Positions 1 to 21,869 of a stretch of 64,000 bases of DNA are shown in pieces. Positions within the stretch are counted from its first letter, which is position 1; each line of letters begins with the position of its first letter. The stretch comes from Salinilacihabitans rarus (GTDB lineage Archaea; Halobacteriota; Halobacteria; Halobacteriales; Natrialbaceae): positions 3,410,001 to 3,474,000 of the forward strand of contig NZ_CP100762.1 in the NCBI RefSeq assembly GCF_024296665.1. The letters are read 5' to 3'. Below the pieces are notes generated by a model that saw only the letters and a list, made by a program, of their open reading frames with translations, made no database searches and had not been told where the DNA came from. The translations under genes were made by a program, and so were the position numbers.

Positions 1-1644
1 TTCGACCTGAAACAGGACTATCGCCACCTTATCCACGAGTACGACGATCTCCTGGTGTTGCCGTGGTCGGAATTGAAGTTCAACCCGTTGAAGCCACCAG
101 AGGACGTCCCGCTGTTACGTTGGGCACAGGTCTTCGCCGAGATCTTCGGCCACGCGACGGCACTACTGTCCGGTTCCAAGAACTACCTGCTGAAGCACGT
201 AGTCAAACTCTACAAGCTCTACGACCTGTTCAACGACCGATCGCCACCGTATCCAAGCCTCCACGAACTCGAACTCCTGATCTGGGACGAGAACATCAAT
301 TACGTCCGGAAGACGTCGAACTATCGCGACACCGTCCTCAACCGGTTGGACGCGATGAACCTCGTTGCCGGAACTGTCTTCGACTGTAGCCACGGTCCAG
401 CCCTGAACACGCTGCTCGATCGGAACATCGTGTTCGAGTTCGACGGCCTCAGCCGAGACCTCCAGAATTTCTTGATGGAAATCCTCTTCGCGTCCGTCTA
501 CGAGTACCGGTTGGCGCAGAACCAGCGAGACACTGGCCTCGAGCACGTCTTCTTCCTCGACGAGGGAAAGCAGGTGTTCTCCGTCTACAAGGAACGCCAG
601 GACGCCGCGGGTATCCCTGAGATCGATCAACTGACCGCAAAGATGCGGGAATTCGGTGAAGGGCTCGTCGTCGCGGATCAGGAAGCGTCGAAACTCACCG
701 ACTCGATCAAGGCCAACACCGATACCAAGGTGTTGCTGCCGACTGGCGACCAGAAACAGTTTCGTGCGATTGCGGACTCGATGTCGCTGTCCGACCGCCA
801 GCAAGCGTTCGCACAACGGCTCGAGGTTGGAAAGGCGATCGTTCAGGTCGGGAATAAAGATCCAGTGCCAGTACACCTCCGGAATTACAGTGTGCAAAAG
901 ACGATCTCCGATCAGGAATTAGAGGAGCATCAGCGCGAAGCGTGGCAGCAACTCTCTCACGAACCACGTGAAATTGCACCTCGGTTAGATTACATGCTCA
1001 GTGGTGGACGGACAGGCGATCGAACCAGATCGGAGTCCAGTGACGATCACGGTGATGAAGGGGTGTCGAGGGATGCTGACCGGCTCCTCAAAGACGTGGT
1101 CGAACACCCGTTCAAGCCGTTGCTCGACCGATACCAGCAGTTCCCGAGTCGGTACAAGGGAAACAAGTTGAAGAACGAACTCGTCGACCACGGCCTCGTC
1201 ATCGAGAGAAAGGTAAAAGGTGGGGATCAGCGGAAGTTACTGGAACTTACCCAACACGGACGGGAGTACGTCGAGGACAATCTCGATTTCAATCCGAGAT
1301 TCGAGGGACGAGGCGGTATCGTTCATCGGTACTGGCAACACCGAATCAAAGAGCGATTCGAAGAGGCAGGCTGGACAGCCGACCTCGAAGGTGATGATGC
1401 GGATGTCTACGTTAGCATGGGAAACACAGATCTGGCAGTCGAAGTCGCGATGGGAAACAAGCCACGGGAACTGGAACATGTGGAAACGCACCTTGAGAAC
1501 GATATCGCTGTCTGGATCGTCTGTCGAACCGAGATCGTCAAAAAAGGACTACGACAACGGATAGCGGAACGCGATATCCAGAGTGAGCAGATCACACTTC
1601 ACCTGTTTCAGGACTTCAGCGAAACTAAGACACTCCCCGAATAG
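1..1644 (+). CDS. HerA/VirB4-like conjugation ATPase with C-terminal winged helix and nuclease-like domain (5' partial)
   Basis: The reading frame is open back to base 1, so the start and the Walker A motif lie outside the window. The visible part carries a Walker B-like strand (VFFLDEGKQVF, about residue 190) and, shortly after, a sensor-type segment around VVADQEASKL, as in HerA/TraG/VirB4 ATPases that move DNA during conjugation or hold it for processing. After about residue 350 comes a winged-helix segment (KLKNELVDHGLVIERK), then a C-terminal domain with a D...VEVA pattern like the PD-(D/E)xK nuclease core (ADVYVSM...LAVEVAMG). ATPase-nuclease-like fusions of this kind occur in archaeal mobile elements. 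The ATPase call is strong, the nuclease-like fold is inferred. Confidence 0.75.
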   Translation, partial: FDLKQDYRHLIHEYDDLLVLPWSELKFNPLKPPEDVPLLRWAQVFAEIFGHATALLSGSKNYLLKHVVKLYKLYDLFNDRSPPYPSLHELELLIWDENINYVRKTSNYRDTVLNRLDAMNLVAGTVFDCSHGPALNTLLDRNIVFEFDGLSRDLQNFLMEILFASVYEYRLAQNQRDTGLEHVFFLDEGKQVFSVYKERQDAAGIPEIDQLTAKMREFGEGLVVADQEASKLTDSIKANTDTKVLLPTGDQKQFRAIADSMSLSDRQQAFAQRLEVGKAIVQVGNKDPVPVHLRNYSVQKTISDQELEEHQREAWQQLSHEPREIAPRLDYMLSGGRTGDRTRSESSDDHGDEGVSRDADRLLKDVVEHPFKPLLDRYQQFPSRYKGNKLKNELVDHGLVIERKVKGGDQRKLLELTQHGREYVEDNLDFNPRFEGRGGIVHRYWQHRIKERFEEAGWTADLEGDDADVYVSMGNTDLAVEVAMGNKPRELEHVETHLENDIAVWIVCRTEIVKKGLRQRIAERDIQSEQITLHLFQDFSETKTLPE

Positions 1645-2849: not shown

Positions 2850-5192
2850 TTACGCAGGCAGGGAGAGATCTACATTCCCTAGTCTGCGGGCGTTAATCGC
2901 GACGATGACCGTCGACAGCGACATAAACACGGCGCCGATCGCCGGCGACAGGAGGATACCGATGGGCGCGAGAATCCCCGCCGCAAGCGGGAGCGCAAAC
3001 ACGTTGTAGCCGGTCGCCCAGACAAGATTTTCTTGCATCTTCCGGTAGCTCGCCTTCGACAGTCGGATGAGCCGCACCACGTCCACCGGGTTGTTGTCGA
3101 CGAGGATGATATCGCCCGATTCGATGGCGACGTCGGTCCCCGATCCGATGGCGATACCGACGTCAGCTCGCGTGAGCGCCGGCGCGTCGTTGACACCGTC
3201 GCCGACCATCGCGACGAATTTCCCTTCCGACTGGAGTTGTTCGACCTTCGTGTCCTTCGCCTCGGGCAGCACCTCCGCGAAGTACTGGTCAATACCGAGT
3301 TCCTCGGACACAGCCCTCGCGACATCCTCGCTGTCGCCGGTGAGCATTGCCACTTCGATGCCCATCCCGTGCAGCGCCTCGATAGCCTGCCGGCTTGCTT
3401 CCCGAATGACGTCCGCCAGCGCGAACGCTGCGGCGATCTCGGATTCATCGTGGACCAGGTAGATGACCGTCTGTGCGTTCGAGCCGGCTTCCTCAGCGAA
3501 GGCAGCGATATCGTCGGGTCGTTCGATGCCGAGTTTCTCGATCAGGTTGGGGCCACCCAGATGAACTGTCTCGCCGTCGACGGTGGCTCTGACACCGAGA
3601 CCGCGGAGGTTTTCGAAGTTCGAGACGCTCGCTCGCTGGACCTCCCGTTCCTCGGCAGCATCCCGGATGGCGCGAGCGATCATGTGTTCGGAGTCGCCCT
3701 CGACACCAGCGGCGATTTCGAACACGCGCTCTTCACTCCAGTCGCCTGCCGTCTCGACGCCGACGACGCCCTGTTCGCCCTTCGTGAGCGTGCCCGTCTT
3801 GTCGAACATCACCGTATCGAGGTTCCGGGATTCCTCCATAGCTATGCGGTCGCGGATGAGCATCCCGTTCTGGGCAGCGGTCGAGGTGTTGATTGCGACA
3901 ACGAGCGGGACGGCTAGGCCGAGTGCGTGGGGACATGCGATGACGAGAACCGTGACCACGCGTTCGAGAACACCGATGTTGAACCCGACTGCGACGATCC
4001 ACGCGACGGCCGTAATGCCCGCAACGGCGAGTGCGATGTAGAACAGCCACCCTGCTGCGCGGTCCGCCAGGAGCTGCGTGCGGGATTTGGACTGCTGGGC
4101 TTCATCAACGAGCCGCATGATGCCCGCTAACGTCGTCTCCTCGCCCGTCTTCGTGATTCTGATGCGGAGGCTCCCGTCCTGGTTGACCGTCCCGGCGACC
4201 ACTTCCGAGCCGGGTTCCTTGCCCACGGACCTGGACTCGCCAGTGATCATCGATTCGTCGACGGATGACTCGCCCTCGGCGACCTCGCCGTCGGCGGGAA
4301 CCGAAGTACCGGGACGAACGAGTACGACGTCGTCCTCGGAGAGTTCGGAGACTGGCACTTCCTCGGTATCCCCACCCTCGGTGACGCGCTCGGCGGTGTC
4401 GGGCATGAGCTTCGCCAGTTCGTCGAGCGCACCGGAGGCCTGTCGAACCGAGCGCATCTCCATCCAGTGGCCCAGCAGCATGATGTCGATCAGCGTGACC
4501 AGTTCCCAGAAGAACGGCGTCGTCCCCTCGAGAAACAGGCTCGCGATCGAGTAGACGAACGCGACGGTGATCGCCAGCGAGATCAGCATCATCATCCCTG
4601 GCTCACGGTTCTCGAGTTCCGTCCGGGCCATCGAGAGGAACGGCACGCCACCATACGCGAAGATCACAACTGAGAGGACGGGTGTGATCCAGACGCTTCC
4701 AGGGAACGACGGCGCCGTGTAGCCGAAGACAGCCTGAATGAACTCGCTGAAGAAGATGACCGGCACTGAGAGCACGAGCGACACCCAGAACCGCCGCCGG
4801 AACATCTGCTCGTGGCCCGTGTGATCCGTGTGAGCGGCGTGATCTTCGTGGACGTCCGCGCTGTGGTCGTGTGCGTCGTGATCGTGTTCGCCCTCTCCAG
4901 TATGGGCGTGGCTGTGTCCGGGCTCGGCTTCGGGATCGTGGTGTGCGTGTTCGTCGGTGCTTCCGGGTTCCGTGGTAATCTCGCCCGTCCGGTCGTGGTT
5001 CGTGTGCTCGGAGGAGTGGGGAGGCTCCGTGGTGGATGAGGAATCCGTCGCTCGCCTCCCTCCATCTGCTTCTAACTGGCAGATACGGCAGCAGTAGACG
5101 GGTCTCTCGGAATCAGTTTCCGACGAAGCGTCCCGGATACGCTCGTGGTCTGGATGGTTGCTCATGGGTTGGGTGTTGGTACCGCCCCCCAT
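2850..5192 (-). CDS. copB: CopB-type (CPH) copper/silver-translocating P1B ATPase with His-rich N-terminus
   Basis: This is an integral-membrane ATP-driven exporter. The first 130 residues contain a CCRICQ cysteine motif and a tail rich in His and acidic residues ([19 protein letters not shown]) in place of HMA domains. The core has TGES (actuator), CPH in the sixth helix (Cys420), DKTGTLT with the phosphorylated Asp464, SEHMIARAI in the nucleotide domain, and GDGVNDAP. The CPH motif places it in the P1B-3 group, which exports Cu(II)/Cu(I) or Ag. The SEHP motif is SEHM here. Two starts are possible; the ATG at 5165 (MSNHPDHER) is as likely as 5192. It is transcribed after the copZ-like chaperone. 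Confidence 0.92.
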
Positions 5193-5580: not shown

Positions 5581-5619
5581 TGGGGAATAGTATTGTATCC
5601 TAGGTCCCTATCGCCTCGT

Positions 5620-6210
5620 ATGCGGGACTTGGACGAAACCGACATGGAGATTCTCTCGCTGTTAGCCGAGAACGCCCGTCGCCCGTTCAGCGCGATCGGC
5701 GAGGAAGTTGGCCTCTCGGGACCAGCCGTCTCAGATCGCGTCACACGACTCCAAGAGACCGGGGTCATCGACCACTTCACTATCGATGTCGACCGTAGCC
5801 AACTCAGAGCTGGTGTGCCGGTACTTGTCCAGTTAGATATCTCATCTGAGTCGTTCGACGCGGTTCGTGAGCGGGTCAGAAACGACGACGCCGTCGAACA
5901 CGTGTTCATTACGTCGGAGGGTGACCTCTGGTTCTATGGACGTGCAGAAGCACAGAACGTCCGGGCGTGGGTGAACACGCTTCTCGATGGTGCTGACTCG
6001 GTTGATTACACAGTCACGTTAGTCGACGAAGTCGAGTGGACGCCATCGATCGACGGCGTCGAGTTCGCACTCACGTGTGCCGAGTGCAGTAATACTGTGG
6101 ATTCTGAGGGGGAGACGAGTCGTATTGGCGGAGAACTCTATCATTTCTGTTGTCCATCGTGTCAGAGTCGATTCGAAGATCGACACCAGCGTCTCGAAGA
6201 GGGCGTGTAG
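5620..6210 (+). CDS. Lrp/AsnC-type regulator with C-terminal TRASH metal-sensing domain
   Basis: The N-terminal 60 residues form an AsnC-type winged helix (DLDETDMEILSLLAENAR ... LSGPAVSDRVTRL). An alpha/beta regulatory domain follows, and the last 55 residues contain a TRASH motif: CAECSN, then FCCPSCQSRF. TRASH domains bind metal through cysteines. A haloarchaeal protein of this architecture (Halobacterium VNG1179C) is known to activate a copper ATPase gene. The ATG at 5620 is chosen over an upstream TTG because the Lrp domain begins there. It sits between copZ-copB (divergent) and copA (same direction), fitting a local copper regulator. Confidence 0.9.
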   Translation: MRDLDETDMEILSLLAENARRPFSAIGEEVGLSGPAVSDRVTRLQETGVIDHFTIDVDRSQLRAGVPVLVQLDISSESFDAVRERVRNDDAVEHVFITSEGDLWFYGRAEAQNVRAWVNTLLDGADSVDYTVTLVDEVEWTPSIDGVEFALTCAECSNTVDSEGETSRIGGELYHFCCPSCQSRFEDRHQRLEEGV

Positions 6211-6306: not shown

Positions 6307-8931
6307 ATGGAAACGCGAACAGCACATCTTGACATAACGGGGATGACCTGTGCCAACTGCTCGGGGACAGTTAGCGACGCCCTGGAGTCACTCGACGGCG
6401 TCGTCGAGGCGAACGCCAATTTCGCCACGGACGAGGGCTCCGTCGAGTACGACCCTGACGAGGTATCGCTTGCAGAGATCTACGAGACGATCGAGGACGC
6501 CGGCTACGGTGCGGTGTCTGACACGGTGACCATAGGAATCTCCGATATGACCTGTGCCAACTGTGTGCAGACGAACGAGACCGCACTCGAGAACACGCCG
6601 GGTGTTATCGCGGCCGAGGCGAACTTCGCCACCGACGAAGCGCAGGTCAGGTACAACCCTGCGGACACGTCACTCGACGCGCTCTACGACGCTATCGAGG
6701 ATGCTGGGTACTCGCCGGTCCGTGAAGACAGCGACAGCGGTGAATCGGGTGAAGATGCTCGTGACGCTGCACGACAGGGTGAGATTCGAAAACAGCTTCG
6801 ACTGACGCTGTTCGGAGCCGCGCTGTCTGCCCCGATGCTGTTTTTCCTCGCAGAGAAGTTTCTGCTCGGCGGGGGAATTCTCCCGGAGACGGTCTTCGGC
6901 GTCGAATTCGGGTGGGTCGAGTTCCTGCTAGCGACACCCGTTCAGGCTGTGCTCGGCTGGCCGTTCTACAAGAACTCGTACAACGCGCTGGTCAACAACA
7001 GACGCGCCAACATGGACGTTCTCATCGCACTGGGTTCGTCAACTGCGTATTTCTACTCCGTTGCAGTACTTGCCGGATTGATCGCGGGGAGCTTGTACTT
7101 CGACACTGCCGCGTTGATCCTGGTGTTCATCACCCTTGGGAACTACCTCGAAGCCCGCTCGAAAGGGCAGGCAGGTGACGCCCTTCGGAAGCTCCTCGAA
7201 ATGGAGGCCGAGACAGCCACCCTCGTCGACGAGGACGGTACCGAAGTGGAAGTGCCACTCGAAGATGTCACCGTCGGCGATCGCATGAAGGTCCGTCCCG
7301 GCGAGCAGATTCCGACCGACGGCGTCGTCATCGATGGGCAGAGTGCTGTTGACGAGTCGATGGTCACCGGCGAGTCGGTCCCCGTCGAGAAAGGCGAGGG
7401 CGACGAGGTCGTCGGGTCCACCATCAACGAGAACGGTATGCTCGTCGTCGAGGCGACGAAGGTCGGAAAGGACACCGCCCTCCAGCAGATCGTTCAGACG
7501 GTCAAGGAGGCCCAGTCCCGCCAGCCAGACATCCAGAACCTCGCCGACCGCATCTCGGCGTACTTCGTCCCAGCGGTCATCGCGAACGCGTTACTATGGG
7601 GCACTGTGTGGTTCCTCTTCCCCGAAGCACTCGCCGGATTCGTCGACTGGCTCCCGCTCTGGGGTGCGGTCGCTGGCGGACCTGCCGTGGCTGGGGGCAC
7701 TGTCTCAGTCTTCGAATTCGCGCTCATCGTCTTCGCGTCGTCCGTGTTGATCGCCTGTCCCTGTGCGCTGGGGTTAGCAACGCCTGCTGCAACGATGGTT
7801 GGGACGACGATCGGTGCCCAGAACGGCGTCCTGTTCAAGGGCGGTGACATCCTCGAACGGGCGAAAGACGTCGACACAGTCGTCTTTGACAAGACCGGGA
7901 CGCTCACCAAAGGTGAAATGGAGCTGACTGACGTCGTCGTCTTCGATGGCGACGGACAGCCTCTCACAGACGGCGGCGACACAGCTACCGATGGCGGCCA
8001 ACTAACCGCACGCGATCGTCTTAGTGAGGACGACGTTCTCCGGTTCGCAGCGACGGCCGAAAGTGGAAGCGAGCACCCGCTCGCGCGGGCCATCGTCGAT
8101 GGAGCTGAATCCCGCGGTATCGACGTGACTGAACCAGACGACTTCGAGAACGTTCCCGGCCATGGCATCCGCGCAACTGTCGGCGACAGTGAGGTGCTGG
8201 TCGGTAACCGAAAGCTCCTCCGCGACAACGGGATCAATCCTGCACCCGCCCAGGAGACGATGGAGCGTCTCGAGAACGAGGGGAAGACGGCGATGCTCGT
8301 CGCCCGCGTGCCCGCTGGCACGGACGAGGGCGAACTCGTCGGTGTGGTCGCTGATGCTGACACGATCAAAGAAAGTGCGACCGAGGCCGTGAGCCAACTG
8401 CAGGAGCGCGGTGTCGACGTGATGATGATCACCGGTGACAACGAACGGACCGCCCGCGCCGTCGGCGAGCAGGTCGGCATCGACCCCGAGAACGTCCGCG
8501 CGGAGGTGCTCCCCGAGGACAAATCCGACGCCGTCGAGGCCATTCAGGACGAAGGTCGCAAGGCGATGATGGTTGGCGACGGCGTCAACGACGCACCCGC
8601 GCTGGCTGTCGCCTACGTCGGGACTGCCATCGGGAGCGGGACGGACGTCGCCATCGAGGCGGCGGACGTGACGCTGATGCGCGACGACCCGCTCGACGTG
8701 GTGAAGGCCATCCGCATCTCGGACGCGACACTCCAGAAGATCAAGCAGAACCTCGTGTGGGCGCTTGGTTACAACACGGCGATGATCCCGTTGGCTTCAC
8801 TCGGGTTACTCCAGCCCGTGCTCGCGGCCGGCGCGATGGCCTTCTCGAGTGTGTCGGTGCTGTCGAACAGTCTGCTGTTCCGTCGGTACACACCGGATCA
8901 CGATTACGAGTTGCTCGGCCGACTCCGCTAA
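6307..8931 (+). CDS. copA: CopA-type Cu(I)-exporting P1B ATPase with two HMA domains
   Basis: The 874-residue membrane ATPase has two N-terminal HMA domains, each with MTCANC (Cys15/Cys18 and a second near residue 82). An eight-helix core follows. The transport motif is CPC (Cys484, Cys486), which defines P1B-1 Cu(I)/Ag(I) pumps. TGES, DKTGTLT (Asp528), SEHPLARAI and GDGVNDAP are all intact. The segment after GDGVNDAP reads VAYVGTAIG rather than the bacterial QADVGIAIG. It is preceded by the Lrp-TRASH gene and a palindrome. Copper efflux is very likely; silver is possible too. Confidence 0.95.
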
Positions 8932-10386: not shown

Positions 10387-11097
10387 CTATTCCTCAGTGA
10401 GTAACCGACGGAGCACCAGATGAAGAATTCCACTATTTTCGACGTATCGAACGGCTGCAGGCGTCCCACCCTGTGCCGTGACCGGGAATTCGACGGTTGG
10501 GCCATGGGCATGTTCTGCGACGACGGTGAGATCGTCGTTCACGTCTAGGTTGTCAAGTCCGTGAATCGCGACCCGTTCCGAGCCGTCGAGGCCGAGCGAC
10601 TCCCACGAGTCACCGTCGACGAACTGGAGCGGCAAGACACCCATACCGACAAGGTTGTCGCGGAAGGTGCGCTCGTAGCTCTCGGCGATCGTCGCACGGA
10701 CACCTAGCAGATCCGTTCCCTTTGCCGCCCCAGTCACGACTCGATCCTGTTCCGAGTTCTTCACCCGCAAACACGACCAGTAGCGTGTCGTTCTCGCGAT
10801 AGCGACGGCTGGCTTCGAAGACCGTCGTCTGGTCATCGGTTGGGTGATAGATCGTGTAGCCGCCTTCGACGTCGTCGAGCATCTGGTTCTCGACGCGGAC
10901 GTTCGCGAACGTCCCACGCATCATTGCCTCGTGGTTCCCGCGTCGGGCGCCGTAGGTGTTGAATTCGTGGGTTCGACGCCGTGGTCGACGAGCCACTCTC
11001 CGGCCGGTTGCTCGCGAGTAAACGGCCCGGCGGGACTGATATGATCGGTCGTGACCGTCTCACCGAGCAGCATCAGCGTGCGGGCGTCTTCGATGCG
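10387..11097 (-). pseudogene. 3' remnant of an aconitase gene with two frameshifts
   Basis: Three frames read in turn give the aconitase C-terminal domain: ARTLMLLGETVTTDHISPAG; then EFNTYGARRGNHEAMMRGTF; then AAKGTDLLGVRATIAESYE to the end RRLLTEE. The first shift, near 10967, fits loss of one base from a TAC codon (EPYEFNTYG expected). The second, near 10724, is an extra G in a run of G (SSRDWAAKG expected). The first 400-plus residues with the Fe-S cysteines are missing, and the remnant begins inside the end of the SRPBCC gene. It cannot make an active enzyme. Confidence 0.88.
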
Positions 11098-12235: not shown

Positions 12236-13639
12236 ATGCAAGCCGCCCTCGTTGACGGAATCCTCGAGTCCTTACGAATAGGTGTCGGCTTCCTCTGGAC
12301 CGCTGCGTGGGCGATCATCATGGGGCTCGTCATCACGAGTCTCGTTCAGGTTTACGTCTCGAAAGAGCGGATGGCCAAAGTACTCGGAGAGGGGAATCTG
12401 AGTGGCCTCACGAAAGCAACAGTGTTCGGCGCCGCGAGTAGTGGTTGTAGCTTCGGCGCGGTCGCCATTGGGAAGGGGCTGTTCAAAAAGGGAGCGCACA
12501 CGGTGAACTTCTTCGCGTTCATGTTCGCCTCGACGAACCTCATCGTCGAGCTCGGGCTGATGATACTCATCCTCCTCGGGTGGGAGTTTCTGGTTGCAGA
12601 ACTCCTTGGCGGCGTCATTCTCATTGCCGTGATGGCGATCCTCGTCCATCTGACGCTCCCCGAGAACCTGTTCGAGCAAGTCCGGAAGGAACTGAATCAA
12701 CGCGACGACGAGCAGGGAACCACCGAGGACCCGACCTGCGGGATGGAAGGCAAAGACGAGTACTCACTGGTGACCGACGGCGGCGAGACGCTGAAGTTCT
12801 GTTCGGAAGGGTGCATGGAAACCTACCAGCAGGAGACCGCTAGCAACGGCGGGTGGCGCGACGAACTCCTTTCGTGGGGTGGCTGGTACAAAGTCGGGAA
12901 TCAGTATCGTAAAGAGTGGTCGATGATCTGGAAAGACGTCATCGCGGGCTTTCTCATCTCGGGATTCGTTATCGTGTTCGTCCCCCAGCGGGTGTGGAAC
13001 ACGCTTTTCCTCCAAGGCGACGGGCTGCTCGTCAGCGCCGAGAACGCTATCATGGGTGTGGCGATCGCCGTCATCAGCTTCGTCGGGAGCATCGGCAACG
13101 TCCCGTTCGCCGTCGCGCTCTGGGGTGGCGGTGTCAGCTTCGCCGGGGTCATCGCGTTCGTCTACGCCGACCTCATCACGATTCCCGTGTTGAACGTCTA
13201 CCGGAAGTACTACGGCTGGAAGGTGATGCTGTACATCCTCGGCGTCTTCTTCGTGACGATGGCGTTCACGGGCTTTCTCATGGAGCAACTGTTCGCGGCG
13301 CTCGACATAATCCCGAACCTCGCTGGCGGGCAGACGGCGTCCGAACAGACGTACTTTGAGCTCAACTACACGTTCTACCTCAACATCATCGCGTTCGCAC
13401 TCTCCGGGTTTCTTCTCTACGTCTACCGCCGGGGATTAGGTGCGCCCGGGCAGTACCGCGACCCCGTCTGTGGGATGCGGACCGACGACAGCGGGCCGAG
13501 TCTCACCCACAACGGCGAGACGTACCACTTCTGTTCGAATCGGTGTAAGCGCTCGTTCGAGAAGCACCCATCCGAGTTCGCACATCAACATCCGCAGGTC
13601 TCAGGGACAGGAGATTCCCAGAGCCATGACCATCACTGA
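12236..13639 (+). CDS. Permease (PF03773-like) with two YHS/TRASH-type metal-binding motifs
   Basis: The 467-residue protein has two blocks of four membrane helices. The first block carries the permease signature AASSGCSFGAVAIGKGLFKKGA and the second SFVGSIGNVPFAVALWGGG, as in the ArsP_1/DUF318 permeases. A cytoplasmic loop (about residues 165-200) reads DPTCGM ... FCSEGCMETYQ, and a second copy at 409-445 reads DPVCGM ... FCSNRCKRSFEKHP: two YHS-type metal sites. The tail ends in HDHH. Family members export organic arsenicals or move other soft-metal species; the cysteine modules suggest a metal or metal complex as cargo or ligand. It stands alone with its own promoter. Confidence 0.85.
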   Translation: MQAALVDGILESLRIGVGFLWTAAWAIIMGLVITSLVQVYVSKERMAKVLGEGNLSGLTKATVFGAASSGCSFGAVAIGKGLFKKGAHTVNFFAFMFASTNLIVELGLMILILLGWEFLVAELLGGVILIAVMAILVHLTLPENLFEQVRKELNQRDDEQGTTEDPTCGMEGKDEYSLVTDGGETLKFCSEGCMETYQQETASNGGWRDELLSWGGWYKVGNQYRKEWSMIWKDVIAGFLISGFVIVFVPQRVWNTLFLQGDGLLVSAENAIMGVAIAVISFVGSIGNVPFAVALWGGGVSFAGVIAFVYADLITIPVLNVYRKYYGWKVMLYILGVFFVTMAFTGFLMEQLFAALDIIPNLAGGQTASEQTYFELNYTFYLNIIAFALSGFLLYVYRRGLGAPGQYRDPVCGMRTDDSGPSLTHNGETYHFCSNRCKRSFEKHPSEFAHQHPQVSGTGDSQSHDHH

Positions 13640-15394: not shown

Positions 15395-15811
15395 ATGGAA
15401 TACACAATACAGACTTCAGTCACCGGCAAGTTCGACGACGTCGTCGACATCACGATCGCAGCGCTCGAAGACGAAGGATTCGGCGTCCTCTGTGACATTG
15501 ACATTCAGGCGACACTCAAGGAGAAACTCGGCGAAGAGTTCCGCCAGTACCGCATTCTCGGTGCATGCAATCCCCCTCTGGCATACGAGGGACTGACCGA
15601 AGAAATCGAACTCGGCGCACTCCTCCCGTGTAACGTCATCGTCTACGAAACCGATGACGGCGATATCGTTGTGAGTGCCGTCGATCCGCAGCAATTGGTC
15701 GGCATCGCAGACAACGATGCGCTCGACTCCATCGCGACCGAGGTCAACGAGCGTTTCGAGCGTGTTCTCTCGGCCGTCCCCGACAAACTAGGCTCCACGT
15801 CGGAGGCCTGA
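15395..15811 (+). CDS. DUF302-domain protein
   Basis: The 138-residue soluble protein is a complete DUF302 domain: EYTIQTSV at the start, ALEDEGFGVLCDIDIQATLKEKL, then YRILGACNPPLAYEGL and LLPCNVIVYE. The family forms a small alpha/beta fold of unknown activity, found widely in sulfur- and metal-related gene clusters. Two cysteines sit at conserved sites (GACNPP and LLPCN). It lies six bases upstream of the second SHOCT gene, so the pair is an operon. Confidence 0.9.
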   Translation: MEYTIQTSVTGKFDDVVDITIAALEDEGFGVLCDIDIQATLKEKLGEEFRQYRILGACNPPLAYEGLTEEIELGALLPCNVIVYETDDGDIVVSAVDPQQLVGIADNDALDSIATEVNERFERVLSAVPDKLGSTSEA

Positions 15812-15817
15812 TCTTCG

Positions 15818-16162
15818 ATGTCTTCATCGAACCAACTCGACACCACGACCATCGTTCTCCTGACACTCGGAGCGATCATCCTGCTCCCGTTGCTCACAAT
15901 GGGGATGGGATTCGGCGGGATGATGGGGTACGGTGGGATGATGGGTCAGTATGGCGGAACTGGTGGATGGTGGCCGTTCATCGGGATGCTCGTCCCGCTC
16001 CTCATCCTCCTCGGCGGTGGCTACCTCGTCTTCCGGCGCATGAGCGAAACGCAGACATCTCGAAATCCCGCAATGGAGGAACTCCGCGCGGCATACGCTC
16101 GCGGCGACCTCACTGACGAAGAGTTCGAAGCCCGCCGCGACAGGCTCGAACGGTCGGAGTAA
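15818..16162 (+). CDS. Met/Gly-rich membrane protein with C-terminal SHOCT domain (2 of 4)
   Basis: The 114-residue protein has two membrane helices (about 9-28 and 47-66) joined by a loop of MGMGFGGMMGYGGMMGQYGG, and ends with the SHOCT motif MEELRAAYARGDLTDEEFEARRDRLER. The layout matches the genes at 14943, 17083 and 18599. It follows the DUF302 gene by 6 bases. A small GTGGG/CCCAC hairpin at 16183-16197 follows the stop and may end this transcript. Confidence 0.82.
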   Translation: MSSSNQLDTTTIVLLTLGAIILLPLLTMGMGFGGMMGYGGMMGQYGGTGGWWPFIGMLVPLLILLGGGYLVFRRMSETQTSRNPAMEELRAAYARGDLTDEEFEARRDRLERSE

Positions 16163-16310
16163 ACCAACGAGTACGCACTAAGGTGGGTATTTCCCACGCT
16201 TGTGTGATCGAATGCATTCGTGATGCTACTCCCGATCACCACTGTGTGAGCGCGCCTTCGAATCGAAGAGATGGAATTCTCTCAGCTTACGATTCTGAAT
16301 AGCAATGTGG

Positions 16311-16316
16311 TTAAGT
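16311..16316 (+). promoter_or_regulatory. TATA-like box of the thioredoxin gene
   Basis: TTAAGT is 22-27 bases before the GTG at 16338, the spacing expected for a leaderless haloarchaeal message. It supports the GTG over the in-frame ATG at 16305, which would lie upstream of the box. Confidence 0.5.
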
Positions 16317-16337
16317 CCCAATACCGTAGTATACTAT

Positions 16338-16646
16338 GTGACCGAAGTCATCCTCTTCACCCAAGAGACGTGCGGAGCATGCGCAACACAGCGAGAGAAA
16401 AACGAGGGCATCGAGGACGAATACCCCGACGTCGAGTTTCGAGAGGTCGACATCCAGAAAGATCTGGAAACGGCCGAGAAATACGGCGTCCGGAAGACGC
16501 CGACGACACTCGTCTACGCGAACGGTGAACAGACCGCCGAATTCATCGGCATCGTCGACCGGGAAGATCTGGAGTCAGCTATCGAGAGCGCGACCCAGCA
16601 GTCATCTGGATTCGCCCAGCGCCTCGTCGATGTCGTGCGCGGATAA
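16338..16646 (+). CDS. Thioredoxin-like protein with CGAC active site
   Basis: The GTG start gives a 102-residue thioredoxin fold: VILFTQETCGACATQ carries the CxxC redox pair (CGAC), VEFREVDIQKD follows, and VRKTPTTLVYANG holds the cis-proline. Such small thioredoxins reduce disulfides or metal-thiolates in the cytoplasm. The start is set by the position of the TATA-like box. It lies between the second SHOCT gene and the broken halocyanin gene and may support the redox state of metal-binding cysteines; that role is inferred. Confidence 0.85.
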   Translation: MTEVILFTQETCGACATQREKNEGIEDEYPDVEFREVDIQKDLETAEKYGVRKTPTTLVYANGEQTAEFIGIVDREDLESAIESATQQSSGFAQRLVDVVRG

Positions 16647-16671
16647 CGAACCAGCGACCGATTGAACTCAT

Positions 16672-17421
16672 ATGACGAACTATAGTCGACGATAGTCGAC
16701 GTCAGTTCCTGAGAGTGTTCGGTGCAGGCGCAGTCGCCAGCGCAGCCCTCTCTCAGCCAGCGAGCGCACAGGAGACGCTCATCGTGAAGATGGGCAACAA
16801 CTATTTCGACCCGATCGGGCTCCACGTCGAACCCGGCACGACCGTCCGCTTCGAGATAGCAGCCGGTGCACACTCGGCAACGGCCTACGAGAACCGGATT
16901 CCATCCGCCGCCAGCGGATTCGATCGTGGGATCATCTCGTCGGGAGGGTTCGAGTACACGTTCGAAGAACCAGGCACGTACGACTACTACTGCATCCTGC
17001 ACAAGTCGGTCGGGATGGCCGGTCGCATCGTCGTCGGCAGCCCTGGCGGTCCAGCCGAAGCAAATCCAATTCCAACGGTGACGTGCCCGAGAGCGACGCG
17101 ATCGTCGAACAGGGCGCGATAGCGTATGGATCCAACATCGGAAGTGGCGGGCTGCCGTTCGTCGGCGGGGCACTCGGAATGCTGGGGCTGGTCGGCGGAC
17201 TCCTCTACTGGGCACTGGGTCGAGGTGCTGCACCTCCAGAAAGTGACGATTCTGCGATGGAACTCCTCCAACGCCGTTACACACGAGGCGGGATCAACGA
17301 AGCGGAGTTCCAGCGACGCCGTGAGCGATTGGTGAAGAATCAAGAGAACGACTCTGTTGAAACACTCATTCTTCAGATGTGCTTTTGGCTGAAACAACTG
17401 TTACGGAGATATGCGAACTGA
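16672..17421 (+). pseudogene. Halocyanin (blue copper)-SHOCT fusion gene, broken by two frameshifts
   Basis: Read through the shifts, the protein has a Tat signal (SRRQFLRVFGAGA), a cupredoxin domain (LIVKMGNNYFDPIGLHVEPG ... AAGAHSATAYEN ... YYCILHKSVGM with His, Cys, His, Met copper ligands), a membrane helix and a SHOCT tail (LLQRRYTRGGINEAEFQRRRERL). The first shift is a 10-base tandem duplication in the signal (16682-16701), which puts a TAG after MTNYSRR. The second is one missing base near 17075-17085, between the cupredoxin and the helix. Internal starts at 16715 or 17083 could make pieces, without the Tat signal or without the copper domain. Confidence 0.85.
16682..16701 (+). repeat. 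Perfect 10-base tandem duplication
   Basis: ATAGTCGACG occurs twice in a row. Removing one copy restores MTNYSRRQFLRVFG, an ideal Tat signal in frame with the cupredoxin. Because a 10-base change shifts the frame, this duplication is the inactivating event. Loss of one copy by slippage would repair the gene. Confidence 0.95.
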
Positions 17422-19592: not shown

Positions 19593-20972
19593 TCAACTGC
19601 TTCCAGTACTATCGTCTGACGAGCCCGTGAACTGCCTCGCTTGCTCGATCCAGGACGTCACTCGTGATTCACTGAGACCGAGTCGGTCAGCGAGCGAGAC
19701 TGGTTCTGCGGCTGCGAGTTTCGTCACCGTCGTGATCCCGACGTCGTGGAGACGCGCCTCGTACGTCGGACCGATTCCGTCAAGCGTCTGTAACGATCGA
19801 TCCTGGTCAGTCTCTGCTTCAGCTTCACCCTGATCGACTGTGGCCGACTCCTCAGATTGTGTTGCCGACCGCTCACGGAACCACGTCGCAACGCGGGGCC
19901 ACAACTCCGCATGAGCCTTTCCCGAGACGGCCATCCCGACGTGACCGGTCGGAAACTCGTAGATGTCGGTGTCCGCACTCGGAATAACGTCAGTAAAGGG
20001 CTTGCTCGCCTCCGGAGGGATGAGATGGTCGAACGAGCCGATGATCTGTAACATAGGCATCGTGAGATTCTCGATGTCGACAGGGCCGCCGTCTAGTACC
20101 AGTTCGTTCTGGTAGAGTGCGTTCTCTTGGTAAATGTCCTCGATGAACTGGCGGTAGGCTTCCCCCGCGACGTCAACCCCATCGCGGACCCAGCGTTCCA
20201 TCCGGCCGAAGTTCTCCACGGCGGTCCTGTCGTCGAGGTTGTCGAGGAGGATTGTGTATTTGCCGAGATACGTATCGACGGGGTTCATCTGGGCGAACCC
20301 CGCAGCGAGAAACTCCGCTGGAACGTTCCCGTACGTCCCGGTGATCGCTCCCGGATCGAAGTACTCCTCGCTCCCCCATTGTTCGAGGATGCCACCGGTG
20401 TCGTCGAAACAGAGGCCCGTCGCCATGAGCCCGAGATTGTTGACCTTCTCCGGATGGAGCGCCGCATACATTGTACTCAGCGTCCCGCCCATGCAGTAGC
20501 CGAGGATGTTGATGGCGTCAGTTCCAGTTCGCTCAAGGACAACGTCGGCGCAGTTGTCGATGTATCGATTCACGTAGTCGCCGAGCGTCAGCGACGCGTC
20601 GAGCCGGGACGGTTCACCCCAGTCGATGAGATAGACGTCGAAGCCGTCCTCGAGGAATCGGCGAACTACACTCTTGTCGGGCTGCAGATCGAGAATGTAG
20701 GGCCGATTGATCAGCGCATAGACGACGAGGAGCGGTGTGTCGTGCGGGTCGTCTGTGAGTGGTTCATAGTGGAGGAGATCGAGTTTGTTCTCGGAGTAGA
20801 TAGCCTCACTCGGGGTCTGTCCTACCTCGACGGAAGCGATGTCACCGAGTCGCTCTGGAAGAAGGCGCATAGTCTCAGCGGCTTCCGTTCCCTGGGTTTG
20901 TATTCTGCGTTGAATCTTCAGTGGGGCCGTGAACGGATTCATGGTCTTGACTAGGCTGTACAGACGAGTCAC
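19593..20972 (-). CDS. phaC: Polyhydroxyalkanoate synthase (class III-like PhaC) with C-terminal helix-hairpin-helix
   Basis: The alpha/beta-hydrolase core has the lipase-like box GYCMGG with the catalytic Cys near residue 167. The Asp and His of the triad are in GSFDHLIPP and PTGHVGMAV. It polymerises hydroxyacyl-CoA into storage polyester. After about residue 395 an extra segment ([24 protein letters not shown]) forms a helix-hairpin-helix pair, rare on PHA synthases. The GTG at 20972 overlaps the upstream stop as GTGA; the ATG at 20942 is the alternative start. It is co-transcribed with the MaoC-type hydratase. No PhaE partner is visible. Confidence 0.9.
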
Positions 20973-21601
20973 TCCGGAAGCGGATCGATCAGCACCGTTG
21001 CCGTCCCGTCGAGGACGATCTCGTCAGCGTCGTTTTCGATGCGCGTCGTGAGTCGATACCGGTCGTCTTCGAGTTCGTCGACGATCTTGCACTGGGTCGT
21101 CAGCGACTCGCCGATGTCGACCGGCCGCCGGAAGTCCAGATTTTGCGAGATGTAGATCGTGAGGCCAGGGAAACACGCGAGGGCAGCGCTAATCAGTCCC
21201 GAGACAAGCGTCCCGTGGACGATCCGGTGGTCGAACCGGGTCTTCTCGGCGAACGCGTCGTTGAGGTGGAGGGCATTCGTGTCGCTGGTCGCTTCGGCGA
21301 ATTTCCGGACGTCGTCGTCGGTGATAACTTTCGAGAAGCTAACGCGGTCGCCCTCCTGGAGTGACGCGGGATCTTCGATGTCGATGTCGAACTCGCCTTT
21401 TGCACGGCCATATGGTAGTCGTGGGAGAACGGCTCCACTCGCCTCGACAAGGTGCGGGTGTGGGGTTTCGACGTACTTCTTGGGGCCGCTTTCGAACAGT
21501 TCGAGGCAGTCCGTAGAACAGAAGCGGCGAGAGTTCGTGACCGACTGAAAACAGCGGTAGATCGGATGGTACGTGTTATCGATGTAAGCCCCGAAGCTCA
21601 C
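20969..21601 (-). CDS. phaJ: MaoC-type (R)-enoyl-CoA hydratase with N-terminal degenerate TRASH motif
   Basis: Residues 75-205 form a hotdog-fold MaoC hydratase with the active-site Asp/His pair in [12 protein letters not shown] and [10 protein letters not shown]. Such PhaJ enzymes supply (R)-3-hydroxyacyl-CoA to PHA synthase, matching the overlapping phaC. The first 60 residues carry a TRASH-like motif: [12 protein letters not shown] is intact but the first cysteine pair reads CFQS. The start is uncertain; GTG 21601 is the most upstream codon and no ATG lies before the hydratase. A TATA-like TATTATAAAG (minus strand, about 21610-21620) is unusually close to it. Confidence 0.85.
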
Positions 21602-21777
21602 GACACCGGCCTTTATAATATCCTAGATAGTATTACGAGTCGAGGAAACCAGGAACGCTGACGAGGGAAAATGCAATACGGAGATGGGGTGACTGTCGAC
21701 ACGGTCGTTGGGTCTGTGTCGTTCAACGTCGATTTGACCCCTGTTTGATGGGTGAAATCACACGGATTGTGAGAGAA

Positions 21778-21820
21778 GCCTTCCAAGCTCATGGCCCGGG
21801 TTCAAATCCCGGTCCGCGCA
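21778..21820 (+). tRNA. 3' half of tRNA-Gly(TCC), attachment-site duplicate (not a functional gene)
   Basis: These 43 bases match a haloarchaeal tRNA-Gly from the anticodon stem on: anticodon loop CTTCCAA (anticodon TCC), stem GCTCA, T arm CCGGG-TTCAAAT-CCCGG, and acceptor strand TCCGCGC plus A73. No matching 5' acceptor strand GCGCGGA lies in the preceding 80 bases, and the D arm is absent or unrecognisable. A perfect 3' half beginning near the anticodon is the classical product of tyrosine-recombinase integration. It marks the right end of the island. Confidence 0.88.
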
Positions 21821-21869
21821 TGTTTTCACGCGAGCAACCCCGCGAGCGTGGAATATCGTCCTCGAACCC

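Follow-up and report, generated by a model that had tools for sequence, protein, structure and literature searches.

A 44-bp tRNA-Gly(TCC) fragment in Salinilacihabitans rarus very probably marks the right end of a 38.5-kb integrative element

The insertion of integrative elements into tRNA genes is a well-known event, and the element from Salinilacihabitans rarus (G000) described here adds a further member. According to a review of archaeal recombinases, the anticodon loop and stem match the 7-bp overlap and the core sites, and the att repeats of pNOB8-type elements are 40–50 bp long (PMC8371274). The S. rarus element resembles the tRNA-gene elements with classical tyrosine recombinases (pNOB8/XerA/SNJ2 group; PMC8371274) in that its integrase gene is whole beside attL and its att site is the 3' part of the tRNA gene including the anticodon loop, with a length of 44 bp that falls within the above range; it differs from this group in having a conserved right-end block of its own and haloarchaeal transfer genes. 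With integrative and conjugative elements (ICEs) it shares an integrase, att repeats, VirD4- and VirB4-like ATPases and a variable cargo, but unlike them it has no recognisable relaxase, and its excision and transfer are predicted from its genes. In the searched part of the text of PMC9259645, fusexin-carrying integrated mobile elements of haloarchaea are described with an XerC/XerD recombinase, HerA, VirB4 and TraG/VirD4, and the signature gene set of our element is similar to this one; those elements, however, are insertions of >50 kb as against 38.5 kb, and that part of the text does not mention tRNA. The fusexin (fsx1) profile PF10699 matched no genome, controls included.

The fragment lies in the window, i.e. 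the whole stretch of 64,000 nucleotides that was analysed, base 1 of which is position 3410001 of a genome assembled as a single contig of 3,622,565 bp. An earlier note on this DNA had read 43 bases at 21778–21820 as a tRNA-Gly(TCC) 3' half; this identity holds, and the length has to be corrected by one base, as the exact repeat comprises 44 bp and starts at 21777. Its sequence, AGCCTTCCAAGCTCATGGCCCGGGTTCAAATCCCGGTCCGCGCA, runs from A28 in the 5' anticodon stem through the loop CTTCCAA (21780–21786) and the T arm to the discriminator A. The partner copy has the same orientation and is located 38,490 bp upstream, within an intact tRNA-Gly(TCC) that ARAGORN places at genome positions 3393260–3393331, 16.7 kb ahead of base 1 of the window; in the window itself ARAGORN found no whole tRNA, in agreement with the remark that the 5' half is missing at the fragment, and an Rfam search of the window gave no matches. 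A whole-genome search with the 34-base core of the repeat (≤3 mismatches) returned two sites, both on the plus strand, and none for the reversed control, which excludes a chance match. We regard it as nearly certain that the 44 bp are the attR of a 38.5-kb haloarchaeal integrative element inserted in tRNA-Gly(TCC), with the following parts:

Genome 3393287–3410000, upstream of the window: left 16.7 kb of the element, with attL/tRNA-Gly, the integrase and most transfer genes
1–21820, plus strand: the other, right-hand 21.8 kb of the element, which measures 38.5 kb in all
21536–21772, no strand assigned: conserved noncoding right-end block, 237 bp, 71–91% DNA identity to nine other copies
21777–21820, plus strand: attR, 44-bp exact 3' part of tRNA-Gly(TCC), partner copy at genome 3393287–3393330 in the intact tRNA
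21821–21857, plus strand: hairpin CGAGCAA...GCGAGC of the native tRNA-Gly 3' flank type, as in the 3' flanks of relatives

The earlier note had predicted that an intact tRNA-Gly(TCC) would lie upstream of base 1 with an integrase near it, and this is the arrangement that we found: on the same strand as the tRNA gene and beginning 184 bp past it, there is a 373-aa tyrosine recombinase (PF00589, E 3.3e-15). Its catalytic residues, assigned by eye in the alignment, are R (AGLRP), K, YxxR (WYSIRHS) and the last Y (RYDQ). The open frame of 375 aa is unbroken beside attL, and the protein is the single genome-wide match to the integrase. A split integrase of the SSV-type (suicidal) was considered and ruled out by this undisrupted frame. 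By sequence, no solved structures related to the integrase or to the VirB4-like protein (see below) were detected.

The element has a GC content of 57.3%, against 70.4% in the left flank and 71.1% in the right flank, and the abrupt change of gene content noticed earlier at the fragment is indeed present, with metal-related cargo to the left and collinear high-GC genes to the right. In the relative G001 the corresponding locus comprises the left-flank gene, tRNA-Gly(TCC) and eleven matches to right-flank ORFs in the G000 order, with no element between them. Thus, both features whose lack was to speak against an integrative element, namely an upstream tRNA-Gly(TCC) and a relative with an empty site, have been found, and the flanking genes of that site are those of G000. 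Most family genomes listed contain a single att core. The left flank of G000 is not identical to the G001 empty site, as a stretch of ~6.3 kb (genome about 3386900–3393260; L003, L004), made up of genes high in GC with an ABC transporter among them, is absent from G001; in G000 it separates the tRNA from the conserved left-flank gene and represents a separate, second difference at the locus. The hairpin motif CGARCRA occurs in the 3' flanks of tRNA-Gly(TCC) in 27 of 42 relatives, and in G000 it is present after attR and absent after attL, which matches the displacement expected from integration. In three other loci (L128 in G084, L037 in G025 and L134 in G090) the tRNA-side copy keeps a 3' hairpin too; there, the element seems to supply the tRNA 3' half together with a terminator-like hairpin.

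In the mechanism that we propose, the tyrosine recombinase would join an element site bearing the equal 3' part of the tRNA to the chromosomal tRNA-Gly(TCC), with strand exchange most likely in or just past the 7-nt anticodon loop. The left limit of repeat identity falls at positions 28–31 in G000, G025 and G094, and the identity is longer in some other elements. At attL, the host 5' half would be combined with the 3' half from the element, so that a working tRNA is rebuilt, while at attR the original 3' half of the host would be left over together with its hairpin. The expected attB would consist of the tRNA followed directly by TGTTTTCACGCGAGCAACC. Excision is plausible, given that the integrase gene is whole.

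Among the products of the left half of the element are a VirD4/TraG-like ATPase (both PF12696 and PF10412 exceed their gathering cut-offs), a VirB4-like ATPase (NF045975 2e-30, NF045971 2e-24, both under the equivalog cut-offs), membrane proteins and a DUF932 protein. The window opens within a 667-aa protein that we read as HerA/TraG-like from its P-loop motif; a Pfam scan of its in-window part gave no match. Pfam and NCBIfam scans covering most of the element proteins revealed no relaxase family, and an unrecognised archaeal type is possible. The presence of VirD4-, VirB4- and HerA-like proteins together with membrane proteins makes conjugation-like transfer probable. The genes of the right half, which apart from the HerA/TraG-like backbone gene are cargo, are:

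55–1644, plus strand: HerA/TraG-like P-loop protein, 667 aa (whole gene at genome 3409641–3411644; P-loop motif only; counterparts in G066, 56%, and G124, 90%)
2850–5192, minus strand: copper-type P1B ATPase (TIGR01511 4e-181)
5593–6210, plus strand: Lrp/AsnC-type regulator with a C-terminal TRASH domain (PF24273, PF13404)
6307–8931, plus strand: copper-type P1B ATPase with two HMA domains (TIGR01511, PF00403 twice)
10387–10917, minus strand: remnant with an aconitase C-terminal fragment (PF00694, profile positions 93–129 of 131)
12236–13639, plus strand: ArsP-type permease with YHS domains (PF03773 2e-59, PF04945)
15395–17421, plus strand: DUF302, thioredoxin-like, cupredoxin and SHOCT proteins
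19593–20972, minus strand: class III-type PHA synthase PhaC with a C-terminal HHH domain (TIGR01836 5e-120, PF14520)
20969–21601, minus strand: MaoC-like hydratase, true start possibly further in (PF01575)

By moving in this way, the element would probably spread functions predicted in copper handling and PHA synthesis. The broken genes reported to the left of the fragment are represented by at least one remnant, the aconitase C-terminal fragment. The PHA synthase with its C-terminal helix-hairpin-helix and the MaoC-like hydratase (19593–21601) adjoin the attR end.

Related elements with equal ends occur at the same site in other genomes. The integrase of G066 is 95% identical to the G000 protein, and in that genome the equal repeats are separated by 63.8 kb. 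At the two ends of these elements, the first 1,386 bp and the last 319 bp are each 89% identical, the interior is mostly different, and the VirD4, DUF932 and HerA-like genes are 55–56% identical. In G035 the integrase is broken (92%) and the span is 6.0 kb. The right-end block also terminates spans of 2.4–25 kb in G102, G084, G025, G107, G073 and G104; of the integrase, G102 and G084 keep no more than fragments. In G104 (L126/L127, C1:187.8–212.8 kb) a single tRNA-Gly(TCC) is occupied by two elements in tandem, and three att cores are present; of the integrase of the second element only fragments are left. Taken with the repeats, the intact tRNA, the integrase and the empty site, these elements bear out the earlier reading of the tRNA 3' half as the right end of an integrative element.

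Other explanations of the locus concern either the origin of the fragment or the present state of the element. Although duplication can give rise to tRNA fragments, an origin by ordinary duplication or gene decay in place of a recombination scar is hardly credible here: the copy stops exactly at the discriminator base, there is an integrase beside its partner, the hairpin of the 3' flank has been displaced and an equal arrangement recurs in independent elements. The conservation of the element ends in other genomes excludes this origin in practice. A provirus in place of a conjugative element is very improbable. Archaeal proviruses also use tRNA genes, and the DUF932/TIGR03299 family is described as phage/plasmid-like, but VirB4- and TraG-type families are encoded, Pfam and NCBIfam scans revealed no capsid, terminase or spike family, and the right-end/att pattern was unmatched in viral contigs.

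It is possible, though we consider it unlikely, that the element did integrate in this way but is now immobile, a fixed genomic island in which transfer or excision functions have decayed. Many of its relatives at the site are clearly remnants, in which the integrase is broken and the span amounts to 2.4–6 kb; its own cargo includes a gene remnant, and searches of IMG/VR viral contigs and PLSDB plasmids for the right-end/att sequence turned up no free or excised form. Decay of these functions is at odds with the frames of the integrase, VirD4-like and VirB4-like proteins in G000, all open and full length, and with the two element ends, which are intact and match G066. We favour an element that would still be capable of excision and conjugation-like transfer, as suggested by the intact integrase, the intact ends and the ATPases of type IV secretion system (T4SS) type. 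For such a probably mobile haloarchaeal element with genes for copper handling and PHA synthesis exact ends are now defined, so that, with the integrase intact, its excision and transfer can be put to a direct test in archaea.

The earlier note had foreseen neither the conjugation-like module nor the conservation of the right-end block, nor that the element is mosaic in relation to others; this mosaicism is the least expected detail of the element. The right-end block of G000 is 80–90% identical to those of the type A elements G066 and G035 and 71% to that of G107, and it is 85–91% identical to those of the type B elements G104, G025, G073 and G102, whereas the integrases of types A and B that were compared share only 46–48% aa identity. 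G124 presents a further combination, with DUF932 and HerA-like genes 90–92% identical to those of G000, VirD4 78% over its length and VirB4 only 29%; at its backbone locus (L148–L149, C1:705–725 kb) no homologue of the G000 integrase was detected. The discordance of integrase, right-end and backbone identities among the elements indicates that integration, transfer and cargo modules recombine. The common right end may reflect sites that both integrases need, or exchange in tandem arrays, and the block offers a handle on the DNA required by the integrases. We tentatively suggest, as a rather doubtful possibility, that the block is an exchangeable unit of two integrase lineages sharing one tRNA-Gly(TCC) site. 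If so, complete elements and the 2.4–6 kb remnants could be cross-mobilised by either integrase, and tRNA-Gly(TCC) would serve as a hub of exchange where modules of the integrase/left arm and of the right arm enter new combinations. Other roles considered for the element ends were rejected: RNAalifold gave a z of about -2 at best for RNA structure in the right-end block, with indels between the copies; the copies, differing by indels, have no common ORF; and the candidate arm-type repeats common to the left and right ends amount to ~2 independent 8-mers, not above chance.

Integration at tRNA-Gly(TCC) has recurred in this family, with occupants ranging from 2.4-kb remnants to a 64-kb element. 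Integrase homologues were found 70–400 bp downstream of a tRNA gene and on the same strand in 48 of the 52 cases examined (a few loci counted twice), the targets being tRNAs for Gly, Glu, Met, Arg and Pro. Within the clade of the G000 integrase, which has a support of 100/100, the targets are tRNA-Gly genes with the anticodons TCC, GCC and CCC, and other lineages in the tree, the deep branches of which are weakly supported, reach Gly(TCC) separately. The integrases of L045 and L114–L116, 71–77% identical to that of G000, lie beside tRNA-Gly(GCC) and tRNA-Gly(CCC), and they form a natural set for the study of a shift in target choice among isoacceptors.
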